The notes below the pieces were generated by a model. The model did no database searches. It was not told the DNA's origin and saw only the letters and a list, made by a program, of their open reading frames with translations. The translations under genes were made by a program, and so were the position numbers. From Campylobacterota bacterium (GTDB lineage Bacteria; Campylobacterota; Campylobacteria; Campylobacterales; Sulfurimonadaceae), in contig JBFMGG010000004.1 of the NCBI GenBank assembly GCA_040752835.1, positions 95,032 to 159,031 on the forward strand: a DNA stretch of 64,000 nt, written 5' to 3'. Below are positions 25,727 to 43,008 of this stretch, piece after piece (the stretch's first letter is position 1; each line of letters starts with the position of its first letter).

Positions 25727-25811
25727 GCGGACGTGGTGAAATTGGTAGACACGCCAGACTTAGGATCTGGTGCCTCACGGTGTGAAGGTTCAAGTCCTTT
25801 CGTCCGCACCA
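25727..25811 (+). tRNA. tRNA-Leu (TAG), island attachment site
   Basis: An 85-base class II tRNA. The acceptor GCGGACG pairs with CGTCCGC, the anticodon loop CTTAGGA gives TAG, there is a variable arm (GCCTCACGGTGT), and CCA is encoded. Its last 57 bases recur exactly at the right end of the island, so the island integrated here while keeping the tRNA intact. Confidence 0.95.
25755..25811 (+). repeat. attL core (57-bp repeat, 3' end of tRNA-Leu)
   Basis: From CAGACTTAGG in the anticodon stem-loop to the terminal CCA. Identical to 44417-44473; identity ends exactly at CCA on one side and within the anticodon stem on the other. Confidence 0.93.
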
Positions 25812-25872
25812 TGCCTTAAATAGGCACTTTTCAAGCTTTTTCTTCTTTTTTTTAAGAAATAAAAAAAATCAT

Positions 25873-25895
25873 TTTTTACTACATTTTTACTACAA
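25873..25895 (+). repeat. Tandem TTTTTACTACA repeat, candidate integrase arm site (left)
   Basis: Two adjacent copies, TTTTTACTACA and TTTTTACTACAA. The same tandem pair occurs at 44269-44292 near the right end, in the same orientation. Arm-type sites for tyrosine integrases are usually short direct repeats placed like this; the assignment is inference. Confidence 0.55.
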
Positions 25896-26063
25896 CCTCT
25901 ACTATTAGCTCAAACTTTTTTTCGCGTGATAATTTTATTTTTTCAACGAAGCTACCCATACTCCACTTTTCATGAAAAATATCGTAACAATATGAAACGT
26001 TTTGATACACTTTGATAGCCTATGAAAATTTATTAACATAGCTCTTTTTTTCAACTATGATTC

Positions 26064-26166
26064 CCCCGTTACGATTATTCAACGGGGTACCAAGTGTTTT
26101 ATCACTCCCAAGTGATGGAAGCCTCTCGGCTTCCCGTTGAGTAATTCAATTGGGACACTTGGTACC
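26064..26166 (+). other. Compact structured element, candidate non-coding RNA or DNA structure
   Basis: Within about 100 bases there are five perfect complementarities: CCCCGTT/AACGGGG (26064-26070/26081-26087), TCAACGGG/CCCGTTGA (26079-26086/26133-26140), GGTACCAAGTGT/ACACTTGGTACC (26086-26097/26155-26166), ATCACT/AGTGAT (26101-26106/26111-26116) and GGAAGCC/GGCTTCC (26117-26123/26128-26134). The first and second stems compete for the same AACGGG strand. The second and third cross like a pseudoknot. No reading frame explains it. Confidence 0.5.
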
Positions 26167-26381
26167 TGCGCCCTTACTCACAAATCCATTCCCATTGTTC
26201 AATATATGAAAGGCGTATCATCAAGCGTCTGGTGAAGTATATATTTTGATTGTGACCATCATAGTCTCTGCTCATAATGCAGTACCCGAAATATAGAAAA
26301 AAGAGTAGAAGTTGATGCGGCTGCGGCTGGCTCTCACAGGGAAACCAAAAGGGGGATCGATCACACGCGAAAAGTGGCGCT

Positions 26382-26702
26382 GTGGTAGATACTATGCTCT
26401 CTGCACCTTCTCATACCGACCTAAATCCAAGACTCTCACATAATGGACACGGAACAAACTGTACAGCACAACCGACAGTTGATGGTATGCTCTTGCCGAG
26501 CGTGAAAAAGGCGAAGAGGCTATTCGACGATCAATCGAAACGACGGAATTATAACGTAAATTTAGTTGGTGGAATTTCAAGTGCGGAGAAGTATGCCCAA
26601 TTTTTTGGGAGCTTTGAAGCCCCTAACTGCGTCATCTCCTCACTTCTCACTCTGGAATGTGATAAAGAAAGAAGAAAATCAGGGGCGAGGCAAACAGGAT
26701 GA
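26382..26702 (+). CDS. Doubtful ORF, 106 residues
   Basis: An open frame from a GTG with no ribosome binding site. The composition is unremarkable, there is no signal peptide or membrane segment, and I recognise no motif. It ends 10 bases before the convergent HTH gene. It may be a decayed gene or simply an open frame in the otherwise empty left end of the island. Confidence 0.2.
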   Translation: MVDTMLSAPSHTDLNPRLSHNGHGTNCTAQPTVDGMLLPSVKKAKRLFDDQSKRRNYNVNLVGGISSAEKYAQFFGSFEAPNCVISSLLTLECDKERRKSGARQTG

Positions 26703-26711
26703 AAATGATTT

Positions 26712-27011
26712 TTAGCGAAAATTATTTGAGACTATATCGTTCTCAATCTTTTCGCGATTATACAAGACCAAGCCGTTAATATAATGGTAGTGTATCCCCT
26801 CATGAAGCACTCCTTTATTTCTAAGTTGATATGTCCAGTTTTTACTGCGTCCAAAATATAAAGCCAGCTCAGTTTCAGTGAGCAAAGGTTTATTCAATCC
26901 ATTAGAAATGATAAGTTTTTCAGATAGCTCAATTGAGCTACCAATGAGTTGTACGACTTGGTCATGCAAAAGATCCACGGGAATCTTTCGTATGGTGTCA
27001 CCTAAGAACAC
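26712..27011 (-). CDS. Small HTH protein, excisionase/MerR-like
   Basis: A 99-residue protein. Residues of about 43-95 form a winged-helix module of the excisionase type: LLTETELALYFGRSKNWTYQLRNKG, then HYHYINGLVLYNREKIEND. The N-terminal 40 residues are helical. Such proteins act as recombination directionality factors or small regulators; its position near the left end of an integrated element suits an excisionase. The start is a GTG with weak support. Confidence 0.6.
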   Translation of the reverse strand: MFLGDTIRKIPVDLLHDQVVQLIGSSIELSEKLIISNGLNKPLLTETELALYFGRSKNWTYQLRNKGVLHEGIHYHYINGLVLYNREKIENDIVSNNFR

Positions 27012-27478
27012 TTTGCAAATGGCCTGTTCGCTTAGAGTTACTTAAGTGCAATTGTTTTCGAATTTAGCATTAGAACCGTTGAGTAACAATTCCTATGATA
27101 TTCGTTCATTCGTTTATTTTAGATCAGTAGCAGAATTGAAACAACTCTTTTACTTAGATCCATTTCTCTTTTCTAAATCATATACATGATTCAGTTTGAT
27201 AACGTTATCAATACTTGTCTATACCCTCTAGAACATCAAATATCCATGAAGTTTTAAGACTCGATCCATATAGCATTTTCCAGTGAAGCTATTTATTTTC
27301 TATTGAATCTTCAATTGCCTCAAATTTTGAAGATTTATTGTGTTTAAATTCATCCCGATCCAAATTATATATTAGAATAGAAAAGAAAGCAAGTGTATTA
27401 TTTTATAAATAAAACATAAAATTTGACAACGCCAAAAAAAAGTTGTATTATTTTGCTGTAAAACAAAATGGAGCATAA
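27012..27478. other. Intergenic regulatory region before the hsd-CBASS operon
   Basis: No gene. It contains a perfect 16-bp palindrome TTGATAACGTTATCAA (27196-27211), a 9-bp inverted repeat AATCTTCAA/TTGAAGATT (27306-27314/27327-27335), and the operon promoter at its right end. The palindrome is a candidate operator for one of the island's HTH proteins. Confidence 0.55.
27423..27451 (+). promoter_or_regulatory. Sigma-70 promoter of the hsd-CBASS operon
   Basis: TTGACA (27423-27428), 17-base spacer, TATTAT (27446-27451), 28 bases upstream of the first ATG. CAAC and GTTG flank an A-tract in the spacer and could form a small operator. A GGAGC site precedes the ATG. No other clear promoter lies before the end of the eight-gene run. 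Confidence 0.8.
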
Positions 27479-28063
27479 ATGAAGGTTGGAAAAATTTCTG
27501 ACATTAGAATCGGTTTGCCTTTAGCTCGTAAAAAAGGTGATATTCATGATGATCAGTTTTTTAGATACAAAGCGGTCACATTAAAAGCTTTCTCTTCAAC
27601 GGGTCAGTTGCTTCATGATGAGCTCGACGAGTTCATTGCAAGCGAGGAATTGAGTGAAAGCTACATCACACAAGAAGGTGATATTTTGGTTCGATTGAGA
27701 GAACCGAATACGGCTGTCTATATTGATAAAGAAAGTAGCGGTTTGCTTGTTCCTGCATTAATGGCGATCATCAAACCAAAAAAGGAAATCAATAGTCGTT
27801 ATCTCACCCACTATATCAACTCAAATGAAGCACAAAAAAGACTTCACAAAGAGCTTCAAGGGACAACGATCCAAATGCTCAAAGCAAGTGAACTGGCTGA
27901 TTTAGACGTAACTTTACCACCCGAAGAGACTCAAGAAGAAATTGTTGCGATGCTGAATCTTGCCAATCGTGAGATCGAGCTACTTGATACTCTCAAATCA
28001 CTAAAAACGCAATTCAAAAATGAACTACTCGACACTATTTTAAAAAAGGAAATAAATCAATGA
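27479..28063 (+). CDS. Half-size HsdS-like specificity protein
   Basis: A 194-residue protein with one target-recognition-domain-like unit and one C-terminal coiled coil (from about residue 150: PPEETQEEIVAMLNLANREIELLDTLKSL). The motif LKASELADLDVTLPP is the HsdS-type end-of-domain signature. A full HsdS has two such units and lies two genes downstream, so this may be an alternative or regulatory specificity subunit. It is first in the operon; its stop overlaps the hsdM ATG (ATGA). Confidence 0.75.
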   Translation: MKVGKISDIRIGLPLARKKGDIHDDQFFRYKAVTLKAFSSTGQLLHDELDEFIASEELSESYITQEGDILVRLREPNTAVYIDKESSGLLVPALMAIIKPKKEINSRYLTHYINSNEAQKRLHKELQGTTIQMLKASELADLDVTLPPEETQEEIVAMLNLANREIELLDTLKSLKTQFKNELLDTILKKEINQ

Positions 28064-29550
28064 AAACAACAAAAGAAGTAATCAATAACGTAGTATGGAA
28101 AGCATGTGACACCTTTCGAGGGACAATGGATAGTTCACAATACAAAGACTACGTCCTCAGTATGCTATTCGTCAAATATCTATCGGACTTCTATAAAGAG
28201 AAACTTCAAACTCTTAATGACAAATACAATGGGGATGAAGATCGTGTACAAAGAGCACTCCAGAGAGAAAAATTCGTTCTCGATGAGAGCTGCACGTTTG
28301 AATATCTACTCAAACATAAAGAGGCAAATAATCTTGGTGAAGTTATCAATAAAGCCCTTGAAAAGATAGAAGAAGACAACCCTGAAAAACTCGAAGGGAT
28401 CTTTAGAAACGTTGATTTCAATGACAAAAAAGTTCTCGGCGATACCAAAGAGAGAAACAGTATCCTCAAACACCTTCTCGAAGATTTTAGCGATTCGCGA
28501 CTGGATTTGAGCCCGAGCAAACTCACTGGTCAAGACATCATTGGAGACAGCTATGAATATCTAATCGCTCACTTTGCTAGTGATGCAGGTAAAAAAGGTG
28601 GTGAGTTTTTTACTCCAAGCGAAGTCTCAACACTATTAGCAAAACTCGTAGAGCCAAAAGAGGGCGATCGAATCTACGATCCTACTTGTGGTTCTGGATC
28701 ATTGCTTATCAAGGCATCTAAAGAAGTCGGATCTGCAAACTTCGCTATTTACGGTCAAGAGAAAAATGGGCAAACGCACGCGCTTTGCCGGATGAATATG
28801 TATCTGCACGAGATTAACGATGCCAAGATCGAATGGGGGGATACCATCAGAAACCCTTTGCACGTCGAAGATGACAAGCTCATGAAGTTTGATGTGGTCG
28901 TTGCCAATCCACCGTTCAGTCTCGATAAATGGGGGGCAGATTTCGCTGAAAATGACCCTTATAGAAGATTTAGTGATTATGGCATACCACCAAAAAGCAA
29001 AGGCGATTACGCCTTTGTGACTCACATGATCAAAAGTCTCAATGAAAAAGGGAGAATGGGGGTTGTCCTCCCTCATGGTGTCTTATTTCGTGGTGCCAGT
29101 GAAGGAAGAATCCGAGAGAAACTGATCAATGAAAATTTACTCGATGCTGTCATCGGATTACCGGCGAATCTCTTCTTTGGTACTGGTATTCCAGCTACGA
29201 TCCTTATATTTAAAAAGAATAGAACTCAAAAAGATATTCTCTTTATCGATGCAAGTAAAGAAGAAGTTGATAAAGCTAAAAATCAAAATAATCTAACCGA
29301 AGAAAATATCCAAAAGATACTTGACACATACAGAAGTAGAAGTGAGATAGAAAAATATTCTCATGTGGCAACGATAGAAGAGATACAAGAAAACGACTAT
29401 AACCTCAATATTCCAAGATATGTCGATACATTTGAAGAGGAAGAACCGGTAGATATCGAGACTACAAAAGCAAGTATTGAAAAAGTGGAAAATGAATTAG
29501 CATCTATCAAAACTCAAATGAGTGCATATCTCAAAGAGTTGGGACTATAA
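28060..29550 (+). CDS. hsdM: Type I restriction-modification methyltransferase subunit
   Basis: A 496-residue N6-adenine methyltransferase. The N-terminal helical HsdM domain (SSQYKDYVLSMLFVKYLSDFY) is followed by the catalytic domain with SAM motif I in YDPTCGSGSLLIK and the catalytic NPPF (VVANPPFSL). With HsdS it methylates the recognition site; with HsdR it forms the restriction complex. The start overlaps the half-HsdS gene, and hsdS starts 1 base after its stop. Confidence 0.95.
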   Translation: MKTTKEVINNVVWKACDTFRGTMDSSQYKDYVLSMLFVKYLSDFYKEKLQTLNDKYNGDEDRVQRALQREKFVLDESCTFEYLLKHKEANNLGEVINKALEKIEEDNPEKLEGIFRNVDFNDKKVLGDTKERNSILKHLLEDFSDSRLDLSPSKLTGQDIIGDSYEYLIAHFASDAGKKGGEFFTPSEVSTLLAKLVEPKEGDRIYDPTCGSGSLLIKASKEVGSANFAIYGQEKNGQTHALCRMNMYLHEINDAKIEWGDTIRNPLHVEDDKLMKFDVVVANPPFSLDKWGADFAENDPYRRFSDYGIPPKSKGDYAFVTHMIKSLNEKGRMGVVLPHGVLFRGASEGRIREKLINENLLDAVIGLPANLFFGTGIPATILIFKKNRTQKDILFIDASKEEVDKAKNQNNLTEENIQKILDTYRSRSEIEKYSHVATIEEIQENDYNLNIPRYVDTFEEEEPVDIETTKASIEKVENELASIKTQMSAYLKELGL

Positions 29551-29551
29551 G

Positions 29552-30733
29552 ATGGAAACAATAGCTCCAAGTGGATATAAAAAGACCAAAGTTGGTGTTA
29601 TCCCAACGGATTGGAATTTGCACCGAATTGACGAAGTGTTAACAAGAGTACGAAAACCTCTTGAAGTAAAGCCTGACGAAAAGTATCAAGAAATAGGGAT
29701 TCGATCTCATGGGAAGGGACTTTTCTACAAAGATTTTACTACTATTGATGAGATAGGTGATAAATCAGTGTTTTGGGTTGAACCAGATTGCTTTATTGTT
29801 AATATCGTATTTGCATGGGAACAAGCCATAGGGAAAACTACTGAAAATGAAAAAGGTATGATTGCTTCTCATCGATTTCCGATGTATAAGCCTCAAAAGA
29901 ACATATTAGATCTTGATTATTTGGTTTACTTGTTTAAATCTAAACGCGGTAAGTATTTACTCGAACTCGCTTCACCGGGTGGGGCTGGACGGAATAAAAC
30001 ACTGGGGCAAGGTGAATTTGCAGAACTTCAAATTCCATTACCACCTTTTAGTGAACAAGAAAAAATAGCTCACATACTTACTACTTGGGATGAAGCCATC
30101 GTAAAACAAGAAGAGCTTATCAGAGAGAAAGAACAACTTAAAAAAGGGCTTATGCAAAAGCTACTAAGTGGTGAAATTCGTTTTGATGGGTTTTCAGATC
30201 CATGGAAATTTGTAAAACTTGGAGACTTACTGGACTATGAGCAACCAACACAATATTTAGTTAAAGATACTAATTATAATGACAGTTACGATACTCCTGT
30301 TCTGACAGCTGGTAAAACCTTCATACTTGGATATACAAATGAAAAAAGTGGAATTTATAAAAATAATTTACCTGTCATAATCTTCGATGATTTCACTACA
30401 GCAACACAATTTGTAGATTTTCCATTCAAAGCTAAATCATCAGCGATGAAAATTTTAAAGCCAAAAAACAACACTGTCAATATGAACTTGATTTATGAGT
30501 TTATTCAAATGATCAATTTCGTTGCTGATGATCACAAACGATATTGGATATCTGAATATCAAGAATTAGAAATTAAGTTGCCATCTGAAGAAGAGCAACG
30601 AAAAATAGCTGATATCTTAATCTTTGCAACCAAAGAAATCAGTCTTCTTAAAAATGAACTTGAAGAGCTAAAACAGCAGAAAAAAGGGCTAATGCAAAAG
30701 TTACTGACTGGTGAAGTGAGGGTAAAAATATGA
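29552..30733 (+). CDS. hsdS: Type I restriction-modification specificity subunit
   Basis: A 393-residue protein with two target recognition domains, each followed by a conserved helical spacer. The spacers end in near-identical KKGLMQKLLSGEIRF and KKGLMQKLLTGEVRV, giving the normal pseudo-symmetric HsdS. The near-repeat at DNA level (around 30140 and 30680) could support domain exchange by recombination. ATG 29552 is chosen because an upstream in-frame ATG lies inside hsdM. Its stop overlaps the phospholipase ATG. Confidence 0.92.
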   Translation: METIAPSGYKKTKVGVIPTDWNLHRIDEVLTRVRKPLEVKPDEKYQEIGIRSHGKGLFYKDFTTIDEIGDKSVFWVEPDCFIVNIVFAWEQAIGKTTENEKGMIASHRFPMYKPQKNILDLDYLVYLFKSKRGKYLLELASPGGAGRNKTLGQGEFAELQIPLPPFSEQEKIAHILTTWDEAIVKQEELIREKEQLKKGLMQKLLSGEIRFDGFSDPWKFVKLGDLLDYEQPTQYLVKDTNYNDSYDTPVLTAGKTFILGYTNEKSGIYKNNLPVIIFDDFTTATQFVDFPFKAKSSAMKILKPKNNTVNMNLIYEFIQMINFVADDHKRYWISEYQELEIKLPSEEEQRKIADILIFATKEISLLKNELEELKQQKKGLMQKLLTGEVRVKI

Positions 30734-31686
30734 GTAAAAAATTTAGAATTCTCTGTTTAGACGGCGGCGGTATTAGAGGACTATACTCTGCACAGCTTTT
30801 AAAAAGAATACAAGACGATTGCGGTGTGAATTTCTATAATGATTTTGATTTGATCGTTGGAACGTCTACCGGCTCAATTTTGGCTGGGTCTATTGTCAAA
30901 AAAATTGCTATTGATAAAGTAATTTCTCTATATGAGTATGAAGGCAAAAATATTTTTAAGAAGAGATGGTTGTCTAGAATTGGTTTGTTTGGCAGTAGAT
31001 ATAACCCTAATCCATTAAAAGAACAATTGAAAACGATTTTTGAAAATACGGTGTTTGGAGATATAGAGAAACCTCTTTTAATATGTGCTACTGACATTGG
31101 GAATTCAACACAATTCGTTTTTAAGACAACTTTCAATGGTCAAAATGATAGCAATGGGAATACCAAAGAGTTGGTTAGAGATAAAAAGATAGCTTTATAT
31201 GATGCTATTTTGGCTTCATCTTCAGCACCCATCTTTTTCCCTCCACATAAAATTGGCAATCATTTGCTTGCAGATGGAGGGCTTTGGGCAAACAGTCCTG
31301 TTCTAGTTGCATTGGCTGAGGCAAAAAAGATTTTTAAGGTTGAGCCTCAAGATGTTTCTATTGTCTCAATTGGAACAGGTGTAGAAGAAAATGATTATCA
31401 TATAAATACCAAATTCTGGGGGTTCTTAACTGGCTGGAAAAGAGAAAAACTTATTTCGATGATTTTAAATTTGCAGACTAAAACTAATAATAGTTTGCTG
31501 CAATTTTTAATGCCGAAAGAAAATATTTTACGTTTGACATATACAAGCGACAAAACTCTGCCTCTTGATGATATATCCCAGAATGAAAACTTGCTCAGTA
31601 AAGCAGATCATGACTTTACTTCTCGACACGCTGAAATTCAATCGTTTATAAATAAATACATAAAGGACAAAGATGTCGACCAATAA
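30730..31686 (+). CDS. Patatin-like phospholipase, CBASS effector (CapV-like)
   Basis: A 318-residue patatin. The oxyanion motif DGGGIRG is at 11-17, the nucleophile elbow GTSTG has Ser46, and the catalytic Asp is in DGGLWANSP (about 182). In CBASS, CapV phospholipases are switched on by cyclic dinucleotides and degrade the inner membrane to abort infection. The gene directly precedes a CD-NTase, overlapping it by 14 bases, and that pairing supports the CBASS role. It overlaps hsdS by 4 bases. Confidence 0.88.
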   Translation: MSKKFRILCLDGGGIRGLYSAQLLKRIQDDCGVNFYNDFDLIVGTSTGSILAGSIVKKIAIDKVISLYEYEGKNIFKKRWLSRIGLFGSRYNPNPLKEQLKTIFENTVFGDIEKPLLICATDIGNSTQFVFKTTFNGQNDSNGNTKELVRDKKIALYDAILASSSAPIFFPPHKIGNHLLADGGLWANSPVLVALAEAKKIFKVEPQDVSIVSIGTGVEENDYHINTKFWGFLTGWKREKLISMILNLQTKTNNSLLQFLMPKENILRLTYTSDKTLPLDDISQNENLLSKADHDFTSRHAEIQSFINKYIKDKDVDQ

Positions 31687-32851
31687 AGAACTATTTAAAA
31701 TTTTAGAAAAAGTCGGTGACTCTTTAGAGATCACCAAATCTCAATATAAATTAGCGGAAGAACGCTATAAAGCCGTAGGAAAATGGCTGGCTGAAGGCGA
31801 ATATTGTTTATTGGGTGATGGTAAAAAACAATGTTTTAAAGATGGTGAAATATACCCTCAGGGTTCGATTAGATTGGGAACGACTGTCAAACCCATCGGA
31901 AAAAATGAGTTCGATATTGATCTGGTTTTTTATACGCCAAATGTTTCGGCAGATATGATCAAGCCTGAACGTTTAAAGGAACTTATTGGTGATCGGCTTA
32001 AAGAACATGACACCTACAAAAAAATGCTCACCCCTTTAAATAGAGGCTGGTGTATTAATTATGCCAATGAATTCCATCTCGACATCACACCATCACTCGA
32101 TAATCATCACGAGCCATTCAATGAGAGTGAACTGGTAGCTGATGAAAAACTTGAACGCTATATGCCTACCAATCCCGAAGGATATGCGCAATGGTTCGAT
32201 AATATCTCATCAATAGAGCCGATATCAGAATTTACAAAAAATATGTTTGAATCAAGAAATACAATCCTTATGACTGAAGACGCAGCAACAGTCACTGAAT
32301 TGCCAGAACATGACTCAAACAAACCTCTTTTAAAAAGATATATTCAAATTTTTAAAAGACATAGAGACATGATGTTCGATGGTAGAGACGATGCGCCTAT
32401 TTCAATCATTATTACTACTCTAGCAACCAAATCCTATGAATATTGTATTCGACATTTCACGTATTACAATGAGTATAGCTTAATGATCGATACTTTGAAA
32501 AACATGCCTTTATTTATCGAAACAAGAAATACTTTACATTGGATAGAAAATCCTACAGTTACAGGTGAAAATTTTGCAGAAAAGTGGAATTACACTCCAA
32601 TAAAAAAACAAAATTTTGATTCATGGCACACGGAAATAGTAAAAATGTTTGAATCGATTAATAACCTCAAAGGTCAACATTTAATTTTTGAATCGCTCAA
32701 AAAAGGATTGGGAGAGTCCCCTGTCAATAAAGTTTACAACGACATGACACAAAAGGTTGATGACTATAGACAAAGAGGACTTTTAGGTGCTGGATTCGGA
32801 ACTCTATCTGATTCTCATCCGGTCAAAAAAAATACATTTTTTGGAAACTAA
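31673..32851 (+). CDS. CD-NTase (cGAS/DncV-like nucleotidyltransferase) of CBASS
   Basis: A 392-residue OAS/cGAS-fold enzyme. The signature is complete: PQGSIRLGTTVKPI (GS near 64-65), the metal-binding pair in EFDIDLVFY (about 81 and 83), and a third Asp in FHLDITPS (about 139). Such enzymes make cyclic oligonucleotides on phage infection. The product cannot be read from sequence; patatin effectors are most often paired with cGAMP-type dinucleotides. It lies between the effector and an E2-like gene. Confidence 0.88.
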   Translation: MSTNKELFKILEKVGDSLEITKSQYKLAEERYKAVGKWLAEGEYCLLGDGKKQCFKDGEIYPQGSIRLGTTVKPIGKNEFDIDLVFYTPNVSADMIKPERLKELIGDRLKEHDTYKKMLTPLNRGWCINYANEFHLDITPSLDNHHEPFNESELVADEKLERYMPTNPEGYAQWFDNISSIEPISEFTKNMFESRNTILMTEDAATVTELPEHDSNKPLLKRYIQIFKRHRDMMFDGRDDAPISIIITTLATKSYEYCIRHFTYYNEYSLMIDTLKNMPLFIETRNTLHWIENPTVTGENFAEKWNYTPIKKQNFDSWHTEIVKMFESINNLKGQHLIFESLKKGLGESPVNKVYNDMTQKVDDYRQRGLLGAGFGTLSDSHPVKKNTFFGN

Positions 32852-33451
32852 ATGTCATTTGCAAAAGGGGTCTCTAAGTACAAAACACTAAGTTTAGAAC
32901 AACAGTACTTTAATATAAAAAATTGTCCCCTGGCATCTAATGGAAGAGGAGAATTTTCACGTGACTATTTTTATTGGGAGTTTACTGCACAACCAACTCC
33001 TCTCAGTAAAACTTACCTCGTATTGCTCATTTTTCATATGGATAATTATTCACCTGATGTTTTTATACTGGATCAGGATGTTTGGGATATATCGAAAAAA
33101 AAATCTATTCCTCACCTCTACGATTCCAAAAGGGTCAAATTATGTCTATATTACCCAGCATACAAAGATTGGGATCAGACTATGCCATTAAATACGACAT
33201 TCGTGCCATGGACTTATTTGTGGCTGTATTATTATGAAGAATGGTTATTTTCATGTGAATGGAAAGGTGGAGGAGAACATCCATCGAGTAAAAATTCTGA
33301 AGAAAATGACAAAAAACAGGTAAGTATTTTCAATAAGTTTCGAAAACAAAAAGCAAAAAAAACGAATAAAGAAGATAAAGCTAAACAAATCATTCATTCC
33401 ATTTATGAACAACGCAGAAAAGCTTATATAGAACGCGAAGGAGTAGCATGA
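32852..33451 (+). CDS. E2-like protein of short type II CBASS
   Basis: A 199-residue protein directly after the CD-NTase stop. Residues of about 50-145 carry a prokaryotic E2-like fold pattern: VKLCLYYP with a candidate catalytic Cys98, then PWTYLWLYYYEEWLFSCEWKGGGEHP. This LCLYxP...W...GGGxHP pattern recurs in the stand-alone E2-like genes of short type II CBASS, where they conjugate or prime the CD-NTase without an E1 or JAB partner. The C-terminal 50 residues are lysine-rich. Its stop overlaps hsdR by 4 bases. Confidence 0.72.
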   Translation: MSFAKGVSKYKTLSLEQQYFNIKNCPLASNGRGEFSRDYFYWEFTAQPTPLSKTYLVLLIFHMDNYSPDVFILDQDVWDISKKKSIPHLYDSKRVKLCLYYPAYKDWDQTMPLNTTFVPWTYLWLYYYEEWLFSCEWKGGGEHPSSKNSEENDKKQVSIFNKFRKQKAKKTNKEDKAKQIIHSIYEQRRKAYIEREGVA

Positions 33452-36400
33452 AACAAGATATCTTTGCAGAGTTGACTCTTCAAAACAACACCATAGAGCT
33501 ATTAAAAAAGATGGGCTATACCTTTATCAGCCAAGAAGAGAATGTAAGAGTTCGCAATGGCAAGCTTGGAGAGGTGATACTCAAAGACATTCTCCTCGAA
33601 CAACTTCAAAAGATTAATAGCTTTGAATACAAAGGGGTAGAGTATACATTTTCCCCAAAAAATATCGCCAAAGCGATCGAAGAACTCAATGTTCCACTCA
33701 ATGAAGGTCTCATGAGTGCTAATCAAAAAATCAGTGACAAACTCATGCTCGGAACCAGTTATGACGAAGAGCTGATCGACGGTGTCAAAAAAAGCTTCTC
33801 TCTCCAATATATCGATTTCAAAAATCCTGAAAAAAATATCTTTCATATCACAGAAGAGTTCACTGTCAACCGTCAAATTACATCTGAAATTGAGAAGACT
33901 AGACGGCCTGACTTGGTACTTTTTATCAACGGTATCCCGTTTGCAGTGATCGAACTGAAAAAATCCAGTGTAGACGCGGAGCAAGGTATCTCTCAAATGA
34001 TCCGCAATCAAGGTAAAGATGAGATTCCGCATCTCTTCAAATACATTCAGCTCACTATCGCCGGAAACAACCACAGCCCTAAATATGCTACAGCAGGGAC
34101 ACCTAAAAAGTTCTATGCCGTATGGGAAGAGGAAGAATTCAAAAGTGAACCAAGCAACCTCATAGAAAATAGAACGGTGAGTGCGCTGGATAAAACTATT
34201 TTTGCACTCTTCAATAAAAAGCGTGTGATCGAAATTTTGCACTCTTATATCATCTTTGACAACAAAATCAAAAAAGTGGCGCGTTATCAGCAATTTTTTG
34301 CGATCAAAGAGATCGTCAAAAAGATCAATGTGTTTGATAATACCGGTAGACGTGACGGTGGGCTCGTATGGCATACGCAAGGAAGCGGGAAGTCACTCAC
34401 GATGGCAATGCTCACAAAAGTGATCAAACGCGATATCGTAGGTTCTAAAATCATTGTGGTCACAGATAGAACGGATTTGGATAGACAGATACACACGACG
34501 TTTGCCAATAGTGAAATAAAAGCGGGACGTGCCAGTAGTGGTCATGATCTGATCGAAAAACTACAATCAGGCATGAGTGTTATCACTACGCTGATTCATA
34601 AATTTGAGACGGTTGAAAAAGAAAAAATCGTTTTGGATGATCCTAACATCTTTGTGCTCGTCGATGAATCACACCGAACCCAAGGCGGTGATCTGCATAA
34701 GTCGATGAAAAAAGTGTTTGATAACGGATGCTATCTCGGGTTTACAGGTACACCACTGCTCAAACGTGAAAAAAGTTCTATCGCGAAATTTGGGGGGTTG
34801 ATTCATAAATACACGATTGATCAAGCAGTACGAGACAACGCCGTTTTACCTCTACTTTATGAGGGTAGATTGGTCGATCAGTGGGTGAATGATCAAAACG
34901 GACTGGATCGACGGTTTGAGATGATTTCTCGTGACTTGAATGATGAACAAAAAATGGATTTAAAAAGAAAATGGGCGAGATTTCAGCGAATCGCTTCGAG
35001 TGAACGGCGTCTGGAGATGATCGCGCTTGATATCAATGAGCATTTCATCAAAAATGTACAGGGAACAGGGTTCAAAGCGATGTTAGCTACCAGTAGTAAA
35101 TACGAAGCGATCAAATATCACTCTATTTTTGAAGAATTTGGCAATATCAAAACCTCATTTGTCATTTCCGCTCCAGATACGAGAGAGGGGCATGACGAAG
35201 TCGATGAGAGCAATAAACAATTCGTTATCGAAGCGTGGAATAAACTCATTAGAAAATATGGCGACGAAGAGCGTTTTCTCGAAAAAATCAAAGACGAATT
35301 TATCGAAGGTGATGAGATCGAATTGCTGATTGTAGTTGATAAACTCCTGACCGGGTTTGACGCACCAAGAGCGGCGATACTCTATATAGACAAAGAGCTC
35401 AAAGAACATAATCTCTTGCAAGCAATCGCACGTGTTAACCGTCTTTATGATGGAAAAGATTTCGGATTTATTGTTGATTATCGAGGGCTTCTGGGTAACC
35501 TTGACCAAGCTCTAACTTCATACAGCTCACTTGATGGCTTCGAAGAAGAAGATCTTCTGGGTGCTGTTATCGATATCAAAGAAGAAGTGGCGAGAGTAAA
35601 AACGTTTTATTCTCATCTCAAAGAGCTTTTTGACCCCGTCGACAATAAAAACGATCAAGAGAGTTATGAAGTTTTCTTGGGTGATGAAGAGAAAAGAAAA
35701 GAGTTTTATGAGCTCCTATCATCCTACGCAAGAGCACTCAAGCTCGCCCTCTCTAGTGACAAAATTACCGAAGTATTCACCAAAGTAGAGATAGAAGAGT
35801 ACAAAAGAGCTATGAAGTTTTACAGCGAACTTCGTAAAAGCGTCAAAATTCGCTATCACGAAGAGGTGGACTTCGGTAAATATGAAAAGCAGATGCAAAA
35901 GCTTCTGGATACATTTATCAGTGCCGAAGAGGTGAATCAACTCACTAAGCTCGTTAATATATTCGAAGCAGATTTTGAAAAAGAGCTGGATCGTGTGGTT
36001 GGGGATAATGCGAGAGCTGATACCATCATCAGTGCCAGTACTAAAGTGATTTCTGAGCGACGAGAGCAAAATCCGGCGTATTACGACAAACTCTCTAAGC
36101 GGATTCAAGAGATTTTGGATGAGTATAAAGAGGGGCGTCTTAGCGATGAAGATAAACTCAAACATGCGAAAGATATTCGTTCACTATTGATGCAAAAAAA
36201 TAGTGACGATCTTGACGAATACCCAGAACAAATCAAACATAATGCTATGGCACGATCGTTTTATGATAACCTACAAGCGTATATGAAAGAGATACCATCG
36301 GAAACGTTTGTAGAAGTGGTACTCAAGGTAGATTCTATTTTCAAAGAAGCATCCAAAAAACCCGATTGGGAAAATAATAACGATGTTAAAAATACTATTG

Positions 36401-36522
36401 ATCAAGAGATTGACGATTTACTTTGGGAGCTTGAAAGTACCCATAAAATTAAATTCGCCGACTTAGATGAGATCATCGCTCAAGTTCGTTCCATCGGCAT
36501 CAACAACTATGCAAAGAGATAA
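33448..36522 (+). CDS. hsdR: Type I restriction enzyme endonuclease/translocase subunit
   Basis: A 1024-residue HsdR. The N-terminal nuclease motif is in RRPDLVLFINGIPFAVIELKKSS (Asp...Glu-x-Lys, about residues 152-172). The SF2 helicase follows, with GSGKSLTMAML, VDESHRTQGG and LLTGFDAPRAAILY. The long helical C-terminal part contacts HsdM/HsdS. The length is normal. It is separated from hsdS by the three CBASS genes yet joined to them by overlapping stop/start codons. Confidence 0.95.
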   Translation: MKQDIFAELTLQNNTIELLKKMGYTFISQEENVRVRNGKLGEVILKDILLEQLQKINSFEYKGVEYTFSPKNIAKAIEELNVPLNEGLMSANQKISDKLMLGTSYDEELIDGVKKSFSLQYIDFKNPEKNIFHITEEFTVNRQITSEIEKTRRPDLVLFINGIPFAVIELKKSSVDAEQGISQMIRNQGKDEIPHLFKYIQLTIAGNNHSPKYATAGTPKKFYAVWEEEEFKSEPSNLIENRTVSALDKTIFALFNKKRVIEILHSYIIFDNKIKKVARYQQFFAIKEIVKKINVFDNTGRRDGGLVWHTQGSGKSLTMAMLTKVIKRDIVGSKIIVVTDRTDLDRQIHTTFANSEIKAGRASSGHDLIEKLQSGMSVITTLIHKFETVEKEKIVLDDPNIFVLVDESHRTQGGDLHKSMKKVFDNGCYLGFTGTPLLKREKSSIAKFGGLIHKYTIDQAVRDNAVLPLLYEGRLVDQWVNDQNGLDRRFEMISRDLNDEQKMDLKRKWARFQRIASSERRLEMIALDINEHFIKNVQGTGFKAMLATSSKYEAIKYHSIFEEFGNIKTSFVISAPDTREGHDEVDESNKQFVIEAWNKLIRKYGDEERFLEKIKDEFIEGDEIELLIVVDKLLTGFDAPRAAILYIDKELKEHNLLQAIARVNRLYDGKDFGFIVDYRGLLGNLDQALTSYSSLDGFEEEDLLGAVIDIKEEVARVKTFYSHLKELFDPVDNKNDQESYEVFLGDEEKRKEFYELLSSYARALKLALSSDKITEVFTKVEIEEYKRAMKFYSELRKSVKIRYHEEVDFGKYEKQMQKLLDTFISAEEVNQLTKLVNIFEADFEKELDRVVGDNARADTIISASTKVISERREQNPAYYDKLSKRIQEILDEYKEGRLSDEDKLKHAKDIRSLLMQKNSDDLDEYPEQIKHNAMARSFYDNLQAYMKEIPSETFVEVVLKVDSIFKEASKKPDWENNNDVKNTIDQEIDDLLWELESTHKIKFADLDEIIAQVRSIGINNYAKR

Positions 36523-37168
36523 CATCACCATTGTTTACAAGGATATCAAACACGCCAATCTAAAGGTCAAACCAAATCAAGAAGTATTGCTAACAGTGCC
36601 TCTTGATATGACGGATGGGGAAATTGAACATATCCTTGTAAAAAGAGCCAATTGGGTCAATCAGCAGCTCAAACTTTTTCAAAAAAACACGCAACCAAAA
36701 AAAGAGCTAGTGAGCGGTGAAAGCTTTTTGTATCTTGGTAAGAATTATCGCCTAAAGGTGATCGAATCAAACGAAGAAAAAGCTCGACTGAATCGTGGAT
36801 ATTTTGAACTCTTTGTTAAAGACAAACATGACTATAGCAGAAAAGAAAAGCTCATCAATGATTGGTATAAATCTAGGGCTATGGAGTATTTTCAAAAAAA
36901 TATTGACAAATATAACGCTATCGTCAAACTAGAGATCAAAGCGGTTCGAATTAGATCCATGAAAACACGCTGGGGATCGTGTAACCCTAAAAAATCCTAT
37001 ATCAATCTAAATCTTGAACTCATCAAAAAACCAAAAAGCTCAATTGAGTATGTCATTTTTCATGAATTGGTTCATTTGATCCATAATGATCATAGTAAAA
37101 ACTTCTACAATCATCTGAGTTTGCATATGCCTGATTGGCAGAAAAGAAAGGCAAACCTCGAACGATAA
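36509..37168 (+). CDS. SprT/YgjP-type zinc metallopeptidase
   Basis: A 219-residue WLM/YgjP (DUF45) protein. The zinc motif is HELVHLIH (near residue 184), preceded by RWGSCNPKKSYINLN, the family hallmark. Homologues often end type I RM operons; their substrate is not established. The start at 36509 overlaps the end of hsdR by 14 bases. It is the last gene of the operon; a hairpin follows. Confidence 0.88.
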   Translation: MQRDNITIVYKDIKHANLKVKPNQEVLLTVPLDMTDGEIEHILVKRANWVNQQLKLFQKNTQPKKELVSGESFLYLGKNYRLKVIESNEEKARLNRGYFELFVKDKHDYSRKEKLINDWYKSRAMEYFQKNIDKYNAIVKLEIKAVRIRSMKTRWGSCNPKKSYINLNLELIKKPKSSIEYVIFHELVHLIHNDHSKNFYNHLSLHMPDWQKRKANLER

Positions 37169-37173
37169 TAAAA

Positions 37174-37196
37174 ATGTGTTTCTAATTGAAACACAT
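37174..37196 (+). terminator. Hairpin at the end of the hsd-CBASS operon
   Basis: Perfect 9-bp stem ATGTGTTTC/GAAACACAT with a TAATT loop, starting 6 bases after the operon's last stop. There is no T-tract, so termination is uncertain. Confidence 0.45.
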
Positions 37197-37377
37197 ACTG
37201 AAATTTGTATTTTTAGGGTCAAATTTGCAAATAGCTCTAAATAATTTCAAATGATTTTATATAGCTATACCCCCATATTTTCCGTATTTTTTTGCCCTTC
37301 CTTTCCAATTTTTTCTTTTCTATACTTATCTCAACAAATAGCTATGCGTTAATTTTTTTGCAATTAGAGGAAAGGTT

Positions 37378-37641
37378 ATGACGGAAAAAGAACTCGTTGA
37401 AATGATGTACGGGAAACATAAAAAATGGCTGCTTAATGCCAATGAAGCAGCTGCAGAATGGGGCAGTAGTTATTCTGCTTTAAGCAAATTATTTGGTGGG
37501 AGTGACGCTCTCCCTGAAAAAATGCTTTTGCAAAAGCAAATCATTCCCCCTTGGACTATGTTTGGTCAAAAGCGAATGTGGAAAATCACGGATATTGCCG
37601 CATGGTTGGTTAATACAGAAAATACGGAGGTTAAAAAATGA
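37378..37641 (+). CDS. Small HTH DNA-binding protein
   Basis: An 87-residue protein with a strong GAGGAAAGG site. LLNANEAAAEWGSSYSALSKLFG, followed by PPWTMFGQKRMWKITDIAAWLV, is the excisionase-like or phage-type winged HTH layout. It is first of a four-gene run (HTH, membrane protein, coupling ATPase, replication-relaxation protein), and its stop overlaps the next ATG by 4 bases. It may regulate that run or the element's transfer region. Confidence 0.65.
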   Translation: MTEKELVEMMYGKHKKWLLNANEAAAEWGSSYSALSKLFGGSDALPEKMLLQKQIIPPWTMFGQKRMWKITDIAAWLVNTENTEVKK

Positions 37642-38324
37642 ATAATCAGCCCTTCAATAATTATTCGAATTCAGGACAAAACAACAACGATTACCAGCGT
37701 CAGCGACAACTTGATGCTGATCGCCAAAAACAGACTTATAAAATGGCAGCAGAACAGGCTTTGGATCACATTGCTAGAGATTATCAAAACGCTCAAGCGA
37801 ACAATCTGAAGAACTGGAAGCTTGATCCATCGGACAAAGCAGCTGTTATACGCTATTATAAACGGTACTGGGATTCGCAGTTCATATCTATTTCTATCTC
37901 AATTTTGATCCTAACATTTCTTGTATCGTTTTATACGAAATGGGCTGTTTTTGGTATTTTTGCAGTCTTCATATTTCGTATAAGATTCTCCCAGCCGGTA
38001 TTTTTGAGGTATCTACTGAATGATCATGAACTAACCGGCAAGCAAATCACCGAAATCAAGGACAAAATCTTTTACAAACAGCTTGAAACCAGTATGACCG
38101 CACTCTTAACGGCTATTTTGATATTGGTAAGCTATAGCAGCTTATTGTTTTCAAAGAGTATCTATCTTGCTAAAGATATGAGTTTTGACGAGATCCAAAA
38201 ATTGGTCTCAATTCTCTCGAAGCCATCTCCATTTTATCTGGAAAATGAGCTTTTTGCATACTTCAATGTGGCTTCTATTCTCGTGTTGATGCTATTGAAA
38301 ATCTATGAGAAATGGAGCAAGTGA
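37638..38324 (+). CDS. Membrane protein of the coupling-ATPase module
   Basis: A 228-residue protein. The N-terminus (1-30) is asparagine/glutamine-rich. Two hydrophobic helices at about 80-118 and two more at about 150-172 and 205-223 predict four TM segments. I recognise no family. Its stop overlaps the start of the VirD4/TraG-like ATPase (TGATG). That ATPase has no TM of its own, so this protein is a candidate membrane anchor supplied as a separate chain. Confidence 0.6.
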   Translation: MNNQPFNNYSNSGQNNNDYQRQRQLDADRQKQTYKMAAEQALDHIARDYQNAQANNLKNWKLDPSDKAAVIRYYKRYWDSQFISISISILILTFLVSFYTKWAVFGIFAVFIFRIRFSQPVFLRYLLNDHELTGKQITEIKDKIFYKQLETSMTALLTAILILVSYSSLLFSKSIYLAKDMSFDEIQKLVSILSKPSPFYLENELFAYFNVASILVLMLLKIYEKWSK

Positions 38325-39862
38325 TGTTTTTTAAAACTCCAGCTAGAGAAAAAAATACTACCCAAAACAATGTGTACGCGCAACAAAGCGCGTATGGGCG
38401 AGGCATCACCTCTATTCAATCTGCCAAAGATGAATTGTACCGTCAGCCAAAACGTTTTAATCCGCTGCAATACCTCGAAAAAAACCGATATTTTTTGGGA
38501 TTAAATCATCTTAATGGTCAACCGACATATAACTATGAATCGATTCATACCCAAATCGTTGCACCTACTCGCTCTGGAAAGGGTGTTTTCATCGGGATCA
38601 AAGCCGTTGAAGCATTACGTGAATATCGTGGTTTGATTGTCATTGACCCTAAAGAAGATGATTTTCTCCCTCAAGTCATACTTGAAGAGCTTGATCGACA
38701 GAATCGCACCGCTGATTTTCAAATACTAAATTGGCCAAATGATTTTGGCTATACCGTATTTTCACCTACTGATACAATCGAAGAAGCGACCAAAAAGATG
38801 ACGATCATGCTCAATTTGATAGAAAACGATACCGAATTAGGGGCAAGTCATTATCGAAAAAGCGAGCGCATATTACTCTCAAAAATAATGCACATCTTTT
38901 TCAATGTCGAAAAGCTTTTAAGCATTAAAATAGACCGTTCACTGGCTGGCTTGTCGCAGTTTTTAAAATACGTCATTGCTGATTTAAATGCTGCTAGTGA
39001 ATTTGTCAAAGAACAGGAAAAAAGCAAGCCAAATTTTGACAAGCTCGAAAAGCTTTCAAAACGGTATTTCGATCCAGAACTATTTATAAAAATGGATCTG
39101 AAGCCTTCACAGATGGCGATATTGGAGTCGTTGCAGTTTTCCATTTCCGAGTTTGATAATGTCACTATCTACGATAAATATCATCTTGCAGATGCTCTGA
39201 CAAAAGGTAAAGTACTCTATATCAAAAGCGACATGCTGGATGAAACAGCACTCAAGTTTTTGAAACTTGTCATCACAGATATCATTCAGCAGTCTAAAAA
39301 AATGAAGAGTCAAACGAATTGCTTGGTAATACTGGATGAGCTTTCATTCTATCCGACACAGATTTTATCGGCTGGGCTCGCCACGGCAGCAGGATTTGGA
39401 GTTAAATTTATCTTGTCATATCAAAGTGAAGCACAAATGCGTGATGAGAGCTTGCGTGTCGCCATCAAAGACAACTGCCAAACGAAGATTTATTATAAAA
39501 CATCCGATGATAAAACGCTCAAATACATCGAACTTTTAAGCGGCTTGGAATTGGTTTCACAAGTGACAAAAAAGGGGCATGAAACAACTATCAGACAGAT
39601 GCAAGAGGAGCACATGAACATCACACGTCTTCGTGCGTTGCCTCGCTCAACCGTGGCGATCTTGATTGAAGAGAATCTCAATGAAATGAAGATTTTTCAA
39701 ACATCACCAATACCTGTACGGCAAAAGTTCGACTGGACACAACTCAATGCGAAACAAGTACAAATTCCAAAATTTGAACTCAAAAAAGCATTTGCAGTTG
39801 AGCTTGTTTCGGTGGATACGATTGAACTATCCGCAACTACTTCTAAAGAGCTGGTTTTATAG
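38324..39862 (+). CDS. Type IV coupling protein-like ATPase (VirD4/TraG family), TM-less
   Basis: A 512-residue hexameric-type DNA translocase. Walker A is APTRSGKG (about residue 85) and Walker B is CLVILDELSFYP. The TraG/VirD4 C-terminal pattern DNCQTKIYYKTSDDKT and RLRALPRSTVAIL is present. Family members link relaxosomes to a T4SS and normally begin with two TM helices; none is present here. ATG 38324 has GGAG upstream and overlaps the membrane-protein stop. No T4SS channel genes accompany it. Confidence 0.82.
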   Translation: MFFKTPAREKNTTQNNVYAQQSAYGRGITSIQSAKDELYRQPKRFNPLQYLEKNRYFLGLNHLNGQPTYNYESIHTQIVAPTRSGKGVFIGIKAVEALREYRGLIVIDPKEDDFLPQVILEELDRQNRTADFQILNWPNDFGYTVFSPTDTIEEATKKMTIMLNLIENDTELGASHYRKSERILLSKIMHIFFNVEKLLSIKIDRSLAGLSQFLKYVIADLNAASEFVKEQEKSKPNFDKLEKLSKRYFDPELFIKMDLKPSQMAILESLQFSISEFDNVTIYDKYHLADALTKGKVLYIKSDMLDETALKFLKLVITDIIQQSKKMKSQTNCLVILDELSFYPTQILSAGLATAAGFGVKFILSYQSEAQMRDESLRVAIKDNCQTKIYYKTSDDKTLKYIELLSGLELVSQVTKKGHETTIRQMQEEHMNITRLRALPRSTVAILIEENLNEMKIFQTSPIPVRQKFDWTQLNAKQVQIPKFELKKAFAVELVSVDTIELSATTSKELVL

Positions 39863-39871
39863 GGGGAGGGG

Positions 39872-40537
39872 ATGATTACCGACAGAGACATAGAAATATT
39901 CAAATTCATCAATCGCTACGGCAAAAGCTATATTGAGGTACTTGCAAAAACATTTTTCACTAATGAGCAAGTTGCCCGTAATCGTATCAATAGCCTTGCG
40001 AAACAAAACTTGATAAGCTATTGGAATACTGGTTTGATGAAACCGCGTAGAGCAATAGTTCTCTCAAATGATTCAAAAATGCTACTTGAATCTGAACATG
40101 AGATCATTGCCAAAACAGTGAAGCTCAATCGCACTACAATCCATCACAACATCATCGAACAAATTGCCGATTATCACCTTGGAAGGATTGGCATAGTTGA
40201 GAGGGCAACGGTTGCTACGCATTGCAGCAAGCTTCATCATGTGCCTGATTTTATTTTTACCAACGAACAGGGTAATAAAATCAATATCGAAGTGGAGCTG
40301 ACCAAAAAATCAGCTCCTCGTTACGCTGGCATCATGAAGGATGTCAGCAAAGACAATGTGGATGCGATCATCTATATTTTAGACAGTGCCACTAAAATAA
40401 GATCATACGCTTCCATCATGCCAAAATGGCATAAACTCTTTTTTATCGACATTGATGATTTGATAAAAAATATTGATCAAACAGGGCAAATCAAACCGCA
40501 CTCGCAGGAGGTGAGTTTGTTTGAAGCCCCTATTTGA
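39872..40537 (+). CDS. Replication-relaxation family protein
   Basis: A 221-residue protein with an N-terminal winged HTH (about 1-60) and a C-terminal alpha/beta domain holding PDFIFTNEQGNKINIEVELT. That is the Replic_Relax/MobC-like layout with a PD-(D/E)xK-like core (D, E-x-E). Homologues on plasmids help in mobilisation or replication of relaxed DNA. A GGGGAGGGG site precedes the ATG. It is last in the module, next to the structured region. Confidence 0.72.
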   Translation: MITDRDIEIFKFINRYGKSYIEVLAKTFFTNEQVARNRINSLAKQNLISYWNTGLMKPRRAIVLSNDSKMLLESEHEIIAKTVKLNRTTIHHNIIEQIADYHLGRIGIVERATVATHCSKLHHVPDFIFTNEQGNKINIEVELTKKSAPRYAGIMKDVSKDNVDAIIYILDSATKIRSYASIMPKWHKLFFIDIDDLIKNIDQTGQIKPHSQEVSLFEAPI

Positions 40538-40542
40538 GATGC

Positions 40543-40583
40543 TATTTAAAAGTCTGTTCAACTCGTAAACAGACTTTTAAATA
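40543..40583 (+). terminator. Perfect 16-bp inverted repeat after the replication-relaxation gene
   Basis: TATTTAAAAGTCTGTT (40543-40558) and its exact complement (40568-40583) with a CAACTCGTA loop begin 5 bases after the stop codon. The A/T ends can act as a bidirectional terminator. Confidence 0.6.
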
Positions 40584-40630
40584 AGTAATGCGGTACTCAA
40601 ACCTCGTATGGTCGGTTGTTTGCACCTTAT

Positions 40631-40887
40631 GGGCGCGTCTGGAGTAAACTCCCGACCCCGATGTGCCATCCGGCGTTTGTTGACACAAAAAAATTAACAC
40701 ACTCGCAAGTGTTAACATTTTTATCTCATCAACACCTGAGCATCATCAAGTTTATCTACAACTTGCGCCTCCCCGCAACTTGCTATCTAAACTGAATGAT
40801 TTGTCCCATCGGGGTCTGGCGACACTAAAAATTTACGCTCAGATTTTTACAAAATCTAACGCTATTTTTAGGCTCCAAGACGCGCCC
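40631..40887. repeat. Long inverted-repeat block
   Basis: GGGCGCGTCTGGAG (40631-40644) pairs with CTCCAAGACGCGCCC (40873-40887) except for one base. GACCCCGAT (40654-40662) pairs exactly with ATCGGGGTC (40808-40816). The right part contains CTAAAAAT/ATTTTTAG (40825-40832/40864-40871) enclosing AGATTTT/AAAATCT. Its role is unknown; the position beside a coupling ATPase suggests a DNA-processing site. Confidence 0.6.
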
Positions 40888-41084
40888 AGTCTCCGTTGCG
40901 CTCTTTTAAAAAAATCATCTCCCAGATAATTTTTTCAAAAAAGCTCTCTTCGCCATCTTCACAAGGAAATGAAAAATAGTGGATGATTTTTCATTTTTAT
41001 CTATCATGTGAATCTCACGTATGGTGAGCTATCTTTCTTTATATTTTTATTTTTAACAAAAGAACATCAACGGGAGAAATAAAT

Positions 41085-41263
41085 AATATTATCATTAAAG
41101 CAATATATTATTACAATCAATGATAATATGCCTATTTTATGATAATATAAGCTTTGTATTTTGATGCCATAAAACACATGTATGGGATTTAAATCTTATA
41201 TTATCATTAATATCATATTTTATTGAAGCCATTGAGAAAGTTATTTTTTTATGATAATATAAG
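41085..41263. promoter_or_regulatory. Five-copy operator array upstream of the AbiEi-like gene
   Basis: The motif TTATGATAATATAAG occurs in full at 41137-41151 and 41249-41263, as the shorter AATGATAATAT at 41119-41129, and inverted at 41085-41096 and 41195-41207. The last copy ends 3 bases before the ATG and covers the AAGG ribosome binding site. Bound protein would block both promoter and translation start, as expected for an autoregulated antitoxin gene. Confidence 0.65.
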
Positions 41264-41266
41264 GCT

Positions 41267-42298
41267 ATGGAAAAGAAATATAAAGAACTTTTAAATACTG
41301 TAAAAGATGAATTTGATTTGTCTATATCATTTGGACAAGCGAGTCAAGAAGTCAAATTGCCTCCTATAATAAGAATGGAATATGATATAGAGTTAATTAA
41401 AATAGAATTTATTGAATTTGCCTTAATCACTCCAAAACATCAAGAGCCAGATTCAATAAAGCGGATAAATATGATACAGGAAAGGTACAATAAGCCTCTT
41501 TTATACCTAAGTGAAAACATAGCCTCACCTCTTAAAAGACAGTTTCTTGATTCTCACATATCATTCGTATCTAAAAATATGATATACCTATATCCTCTTT
41601 TGCTGATTCAAAAAGATAGAGGTGAATTTGTTCAAAACAAAAATATAAAAAATATAAATATATCTATGCAACCTTTAATGCTTTATCTCCTATACAATCA
41701 TAGATATGATGATCATTTTAGTGTTGAAAAAATTCATTCAGAGTTTAAACAAAGTATTCCAACAATATATAGATATATCCAAGTTTTAGAAGATTTATCT
41801 TTAATAAAAGTAGAAAAGGATGGAAGAAATAAATTTTTTAAACTAAATCAAGAGATGTCTTTTGAGAAGATGATAGAACTATTGCGTTCACCTGTCAAAG
41901 AAACAGTTTTTATAAAGCATGAAGACTTTCAAAGGATAAATAAAAATCATCAATATTGTATAGCTGGTGAAAGCGCACTTAGTCAATATAATCTAGCCGT
42001 AAGTCAACAAAGCTATGCAGTTTTTTACAATGATACAAAAGGAAGGGAATGGGATAAAGTGAATTATTCTTCTCGTTATTATGATGAATACGATGAAATA
42101 CAAAAGTGGCATTATGATCCAAAAAGTATCAACAAAATGATAAAAGATTCGTATATGTATTACCAAGATAGTGTTGATCCAATATCACTATATTTAAGCC
42201 TTAGAGATATTGATATTGATATTGATATTAGACTTACAGATGCAATAGAGGAATTATTTGAAGAGATTAAAAGGTTATATGGATGGCAAACGATATAG
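41267..42298 (+). CDS. AbiEi-like transcriptional regulator/antitoxin
   Basis: A 343-residue protein. The middle (about 140-200) holds a winged HTH: SVEKIHSEFKQSIPTIYRYIQVLEDLSLIKVEKDG. The C-terminal part includes the AGESALSQYNLA segment resembling the AbiEi C-terminal domain. The N-terminal 130 residues are not recognised and are longer than in classic AbiEi. A 16-base overlap with a DxD nucleotidyltransferase gene and the operator array support a type IV AbiE-like toxin-antitoxin unit. The HTH placement differs from the standard N-terminal one, so the family is tentative. Confidence 0.6.
   Translation: MEKKYKELLNTVKDEFDLSISFGQASQEVKLPPIIRMEYDIELIKIEFIEFALITPKHQEPDSIKRINMIQERYNKPLLYLSENIASPLKRQFLDSHISFVSKNMIYLYPLLLIQKDRGEFVQNKNIKNINISMQPLMLYLLYNHRYDDHFSVEKIHSEFKQSIPTIYRYIQVLEDLSLIKVEKDGRNKFFKLNQEMSFEKMIELLRSPVKETVFIKHEDFQRINKNHQYCIAGESALSQYNLAVSQQSYAVFYNDTKGREWDKVNYSSRYYDEYDEIQKWHYDPKSINKMIKDSYMYYQDSVDPISLYLSLRDIDIDIDIRLTDAIEELFEEIKRLYGWQTI
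42206..42229 (+). repeat. Four tandem GATATT hexamers inside the AbiEi-like gene
   Basis: Four exact copies encode alternating Asp-Ile near the C-terminus (about residues 314-321). The hexamer unit keeps frame on slippage, so only length would vary. Confidence 0.8.
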
Positions 42299-43008
42299 TA
42301 CAAGGATTATCCCATTTTTCAGATTTTTTTACGGATTACAAGGATGATTACATAGTTATTGGTGGTGTGGCAACTGCTTTACATTTGAAAAGATATGGTG
42401 CTACATCAATCAGGGCCACTTTGGATATTGATTTAATAGTCCTAGATGATCAAAAAAATAGTACTTTTGTAGATAGAATGGTTGAATATGTAAAAACAGT
42501 AAGCTATCAGCACTGTGGTATATATAAAGAAGAAACGAGGATATTATATCAATTTAAAGATCCTGTCATTAAAGACGCACCAGAGCAAATAGAACTATTT
42601 ACTATTGATGAAATAAAAGATGAGAAATTAACCTTTATACGGCTGGAGGGGAGTGAATACTATTTTTATATTAGTGCAATAGTTCTGAATAGTGATTACA
42701 GAGAACTCATTGATCAGTTTAAGCTAGATCATCATAATTTATCAATAGCAGCTCCTGAAGTTTTAATACCATTAAAAGCATTAGCATATGTAAATCTTGG
42801 AAAAGAAGGCACAAAAAGAGCTTTGAGAGAACAGAAAAAACATCTTGATGATATCAAAAGACTAATAGAATATGTCGAGGAAGAAAAAATTGAAGTAAGT
42901 GAGAAAATTTATAATGATCTTACCACGGTTTTAGGGGAAGTAAAAAAAATTAGAGGTAGAGAAGAGTTAGCTGATAACGCTTTAAAGGTATATGTTAAAA
43001 AAGCGTAA
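42283..43008 (+). CDS. AbiEii-like nucleotidyltransferase toxin
   Basis: A 241-residue nucleotidyltransferase. The core motif is VIGGVATALHLKRYG, followed by TLDIDLIV (the DxD metal pair), typical of AbiEii/DUF1814-type toxins, which modify tRNA or nucleotides. The C-terminal half is helical and charged. It starts inside the upstream gene, so the two are coupled. The promoter array in front of the pair fits an autoregulated TA operon. Confidence 0.72.
   Translation: MANDIVQGLSHFSDFFTDYKDDYIVIGGVATALHLKRYGATSIRATLDIDLIVLDDQKNSTFVDRMVEYVKTVSYQHCGIYKEETRILYQFKDPVIKDAPEQIELFTIDEIKDEKLTFIRLEGSEYYFYISAIVLNSDYRELIDQFKLDHHNLSIAAPEVLIPLKALAYVNLGKEGTKRALREQKKHLDDIKRLIEYVEEEKIEVSEKIYNDLTTVLGEVKKIRGREELADNALKVYVKKA

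Follow-up and report, generated by a model that had tools for sequence, protein, structure and literature searches.

A stand-alone E2-like protein in a Campylobacterota CBASS operon and its probable action on the C-terminal tail of its partner cyclase

The 64,000-nucleotide stretch of Campylobacterota DNA analysed here (the window) encodes, at 32852..33451 on the + strand, a stand-alone protein of 199 aa (ATG start) that is a ubiquitin-E2-like enzyme of the same family as the E2 of the Serratia marcescens CBASS. By analogy with that system, we consider it highly probable that this is a regulatory E2 which would cleave the tail of its own cyclase via Cys98, hold the cyclase as a thioester and transfer it to a lysine, and so activate the cyclase and a phospholipase. 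To our knowledge, the mechanism of E2-only CBASS is known from one Serratia system, and the locus in the window would extend it to the Campylobacterota.

We assign family and fold because a PADLOC E2 model matches the open reading frame (2.8e-44), phmmer connects the protein to the Serratia E2 (8hsb chain B, 1.7e-18), and the predicted structure retrieves the Serratia E2 chains; Pfam and NCBIfam profile searches with the 199-aa protein returned no match. The AF2 model, which was built on an alignment of relatives (pLDDT 86.4, pTM 0.81), had 8yjy_B as its top structural match (Z 15.5 over 142 residues, rmsd 2.5) and also matched 8hsb_B (Z 14.0), whereas UEV, UFC1 and Cap2 reached Z scores of about 8-9, far below the Serratia E2 chains. 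A sequence-only reading of the window had proposed a stand-alone E2-like gene beside a CD-NTase and had named a predicted fold unrelated to E2 as what would speak against this; the fold obtained is that of an E2. The motifs to which it had pointed are all found where it had placed them, namely LCLYYP with Cys98, the W-rich segment (W120, W124, W131 and W137) and GGGEHP at 139-144. Cys98 (codon 33143..33145, +), its candidate for the catalytic residue, is invariant in 46/46 aligned E2s and aligns with Cys101 of the Serratia E2, while C25 and C135 vary in the same alignment. On the strength of this conservation, Cys98 is likely the catalytic residue of the enzyme.

A search of GTDB genomes gave 149 relatives of the E2, 80 of which were kept; relatives are present in 6/397 genomes of the Campylobacterota, and further ones were obtained from plasmids. 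Viral contigs contained no close relative when queried with the single protein. With an alignment as the query they yielded one distant E2, and phage records yielded one distant match; on these results, the idea of a notably phage-borne gene was rejected.

The E2 gene belongs to a run of genes in the order hsdM, hsdS, patatin, CD-NTase, E2, hsdR and a YgjP-like gene, all on the + strand and with short overlaps or no gap between them. The type I restriction-modification (R-M) methyltransferase gene hsdM (28060..29550; Pfam N6_Mtase 1.5e-117, HsdM_N 1.3e-29) stands upstream, and hsdS (29522..30733; Methylase_S 2.3e-23) shares its last 4 bases with the beginning of the patatin gene. The product of the latter (30730..31686), a patatin-like phospholipase of the CapV/CapE type, carries the motifs GGGIRG, GTSTG and DGG and is a recognised CBASS effector, scoring above the cut-off of the NCBIfam model CBASS_lipase NF041079 (7.7e-69) and matching the PADLOC phospholipase effector (2.2e-84) and Pfam Patatin (4e-30). 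The CD-NTase (31673..32851) is CdnG-like, with matches to a PADLOC cyclase model (1.4e-109), Pfam SMODS (2.4e-11) and SmCdnG (8hsb_A, phmmer 1e-59) and with an AF2 model of pTM 0.84; its residues G64-S65, D81, D83 and D137 are invariant among 37 aligned cyclases. The E2 gene adjoins it with 0 bases between the two, and the ATG of hsdR (33448..36522; TIGR00348 5.7e-148) overlaps the stop codon of the E2 gene. The neighbourhood of CD-NTase and E2 is therefore as the sequence-only reading had described it, supported by PADLOC, Pfam SMODS and phmmer.

The same reading had also held that the E2 lacks an E1 or JAB partner and belongs to the short type II class of CBASS. Both statements stand: profile searches of the CBASS operon found neither an E1 (ThiF) nor a JAB gene, Prok-JAB has no match in the whole genome, and ThiF occurs in it twice, in proteins of 263 and 272 aa whose genes lie on other contigs. 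The features of a Cap2/Cap3-type system are absent, as the E2 of 199 aa has no ThiF domain and the last residue of the cyclase is neither G nor A. Instead, an E2 fold with its cysteine, an adjoining CD-NTase and an effector occur together in an operon free of E1 and JAB genes. The patatin, CD-NTase and E2 genes are thus a short (E2-only) type II CBASS, for which anti-phage activity is predicted.

Beyond what that reading had covered, the window shows a conserved tail on the cyclase, a nesting of the CBASS genes in an R-M operon and a mobile island. The cyclase tail, N387-T-F-F-G-N392 (codons 32831..32848, +), is the proposed site of processing by the E2. All of the 83 distinct intact partner cyclases that were fetched end in N-x-F-[FY]-G followed by 1-7 residues, and in two further loci (L018 and L047) the motif lies in another frame, consistent with frameshifts. 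Among loci found mainly by their cyclase, the strict motif is present in 12 of the 16 that carry this E2 family, the other four having variant ends such as HDFHGGRV and HRFFGGETAR, and in none of about 20 loci with related cyclases but without this E2 family; the association is significant by Fisher's test (1.5e-6) when kinship is ignored. The covariation owes something to shared ancestry, because a given E2 family is paired for the most part with a single clade of cyclases. Covariation of tail and E2 supports an E1-independent processing of the cyclase tail by the E2, in line with what is reported of Serratia. The partners of ThiF-type Cap2 proteins mostly end in GFA or GRLG, and for cyclases of E1-E2 systems a rule of a C-terminal G or A has been reported for 1,583 proteins (PMC10097602). 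Natural fusions of cyclase and E2, suggested by the PADLOC model PDLC00816, were not found in 299 genomes; the sole match that spans both parts (L132) has a stop between them.

In SmCdnG, the corresponding NTFYG occupies residues 402-406 of a chain of 407. A point against such processing in the window is the terminal Asn of its cyclase, which sets it apart from most of its relatives (mostly D or R). A table in a review (PMC12135389) assigns the E2-dependent cGASylation of Yan et al. 2024 to Y405 of a prokaryotic cyclase, whose equivalent here is F390. This entry makes it uncertain that the scissile bond follows the Gly, and the cut may fall at F390 or, alternatively, at the adjacent G391.

Carried over from the Serratia system, the sequence of events would be as follows. 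With Cys98, the E2 would attack the C-terminal end of its own cyclase, cutting within N-T-F-F-G-N and forming a thioester with the newly made C-terminus, so that cleavage of the peptide bond would take the place of the usual activation by an E1; the lack of E1 and JAB genes would find its explanation in this replacement. The C-terminus would then pass from Cys98 to a lysine, and the likeliest bearer of that lysine is a second cyclase molecule. In the Serratia system of Yan et al. (2024), the E2 is reported to process the cyclase C-terminus, which becomes attached first to a cysteine and later to a lysine. Linked cyclases would make the cyclic nucleotide that activates the phospholipase, whose damage to the membrane would abort phage growth. 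Activation by conjugation of one cyclase to another has been proposed for an E2-only system in work cited in a passage of PMC11153139.

A different source of activation could be imagined in the two ThiF-family proteins: a housekeeping E1 of the ThiF/MoeB type, encoded elsewhere, might activate the cyclase, and the E2 would then be an ordinary E2 domain like that of Cap2. We regard this as very improbable. Both proteins are about half as long as Cap2 and encoded far from the CBASS locus, and the ThiF family occurs in 12/14 control genomes, as would be expected of housekeeping enzymes. Unlike adenylated cyclases, the cyclase in the window lacks a terminal G or A, and since further residues always trail the conserved Gly, adenylation of this Gly would need prior trimming; a JAB protease is absent from the genome. 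Quite improbable, too, is a mainly structural role, in which the E2 would scaffold the cyclase non-covalently or keep it inactive, with catalysis a minor matter. The Serratia CdnG and E2 do form a stable complex, seen by cryo-EM (8hsb, 8yjy), but a mere subunit would hardly account for an invariant Cys98 next to variable other cysteines, nor for a cyclase tail kept in every intact partner. Both observations are in line with the reading preferred here, that the E2 cuts and conjugates the cyclase tail.

A further alternative concerns the E2's own C-terminus (residues 145-199; 33284..33448, +), a lysine-rich linker followed by a predicted helix at 167-197 with the pattern I-Y-x-x-R. The sequence-only reading had called this tail unusual and lysine-rich, and rightly so: 12 of the 55 residues after GGGEHP are K, a content reached by 0/2722 55-aa windows of the neighbouring operon proteins, and tails of 50-60 residues are found in 7/7 Campylobacterota E2s, as against <=32 residues in 39 others. 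Its suggestion of a nucleic-acid contact is not supported, because the net charge of the tail runs from +8 to -2 among homologues. It had also named the tail as a possible target of conjugation. An E2 that modifies itself, its tail serving as chief acceptor of conjugated cyclase, is a reading that we hold to be unlikely. Campylobacterota tails do contain 15-24% K and a conserved helix; however, no lysine in them is invariant, and because relatives in other phyla keep the E2-cyclase pair without such a tail, it is not a general acceptor.

In the AF2 model, the tail is in part a low-confidence linker, while the helix has a pLDDT of about 90-97 over most of its length. Compared with an 88% identical relative (L016), the helix shows 0 nonsynonymous and 3 synonymous differences in only 31 codons, and the linker varies more freely. 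As evidence for conservation of the helix these 31 codons are weak when taken by themselves, and the pattern I-[YC]-x-x-R, common to tailed E2s with an overall identity down to about 30-35%, adds support to it. The added C-terminal helix is the only unusual part of the E2 and is specific to the Campylobacterota; as a conserved extra element it offers a defined, deletable part. Our guess would be that the tail docks the cyclase or a second E2. A link to one effector was rejected, as E2s with a tail are encoded beside patatin effectors and beside SAVED effectors. The tail may have arisen once or twice: a quick cyclase tree gives one change if labelled groups only are counted and two if all rows are. 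We hold it to be rather unlikely that E1-free conjugation is a property of the whole family of E2-only CBASS enzymes, with the E2 cysteine attacking a peptide bond in the cyclase tail N-x-F-[FY]-G-x and keeping the energy of that bond in a thioester, and that the added helix of the Campylobacterota substitutes for the missing partners as an acceptor or regulator. Were the E1-free route general, it would represent a minimal ubiquitin-like conjugation for which two proteins are sufficient.

The R-M and CBASS genes are part of an 18.66-kb integrative island (25727-44484), on which a tyrosine integrase (43023-44183, - strand) and a T4CP-like gene (38312-39862) are also encoded. It lies between a tRNA-Leu gene (25727-25811) and an exact copy, 57 bp long, of the tRNA 3' end at 44417. 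In two related loci, L097 and L098, the CBASS genes likewise lie between hsdS and hsdR; a SLFN_AlbA_2-type gene, missing from the window, stands there between E2 and hsdR, and L097 has in this place a further gene of 1208 aa with no Pfam match. Because BLASTP found no matches to the hsd genes of the window in the other GTDB loci, within the flanks that were fetched, the nesting looks like a trait of the window's lineage, although an hsdR is annotated close to the relative on a plasmid (L015). Upstream of hsdM, a short HsdS-like reading frame (27479-28063, 194 aa), with relatives in L097 and L098, is possibly a half-size specificity subunit. Elsewhere on the island, two adjacent reading frames at 41267-43008 (343 and 241 aa) may be a toxin-antitoxin or Abi pair; the second matches AbiEii weakly (0.0085) and begins like a nucleotidyltransferase.

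Of the known systems, the Serratia marcescens CdnG-E2 CBASS (PDB 8hsb, 8yjy, 9kkb; Yan et al. 2024, doi 10.1038/s41564-024-01684-z) shares with that of the window the E2 fold, the position of the catalytic Cys in an LCL motif, and a single E2 paired with a CdnG-like cyclase whose tail reads N-T-F-[FY]-G plus a residue. The Serratia E2 (162 aa) is about 28% identical to the E2 of the window over 142 residues and lacks its 55-aa tail with the helix. With UFC1 and Tsg101/UEV, which are eukaryotic, about 10% identical and act on different substrates, the fold alone is in common. Type II CBASS with Cap2, an E1-E2 fusion, and the JAB protein Cap3 (e.g., 7to3) resembles the window system in the fold of its E2 domain (7to3_A, Z 7.9) and in having a CD-NTase partner, but the window has no E1 domain or JAB gene, and its cyclase does not end in a bare G/A. 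The stand-alone CBASS E2s of the PADLOC model PDLC00859 (loci L108, L115 and L117) likewise stand singly beside a related CD-NTase; they differ in length (about 215-230 aa), in a CPCGCN-like cysteine cluster and in partner cyclases that end KPW-x(3-4). Across L108, L115, L117 and L125, the cyclases end KPW-x(2-4), and the PDLC00859 E2 is the next gene in the first three. The end of the cyclase can thus serve as a sequence test, as N-x-F-[FY]-G-x, a terminal G/A and KPW-x separate the three types of E2.
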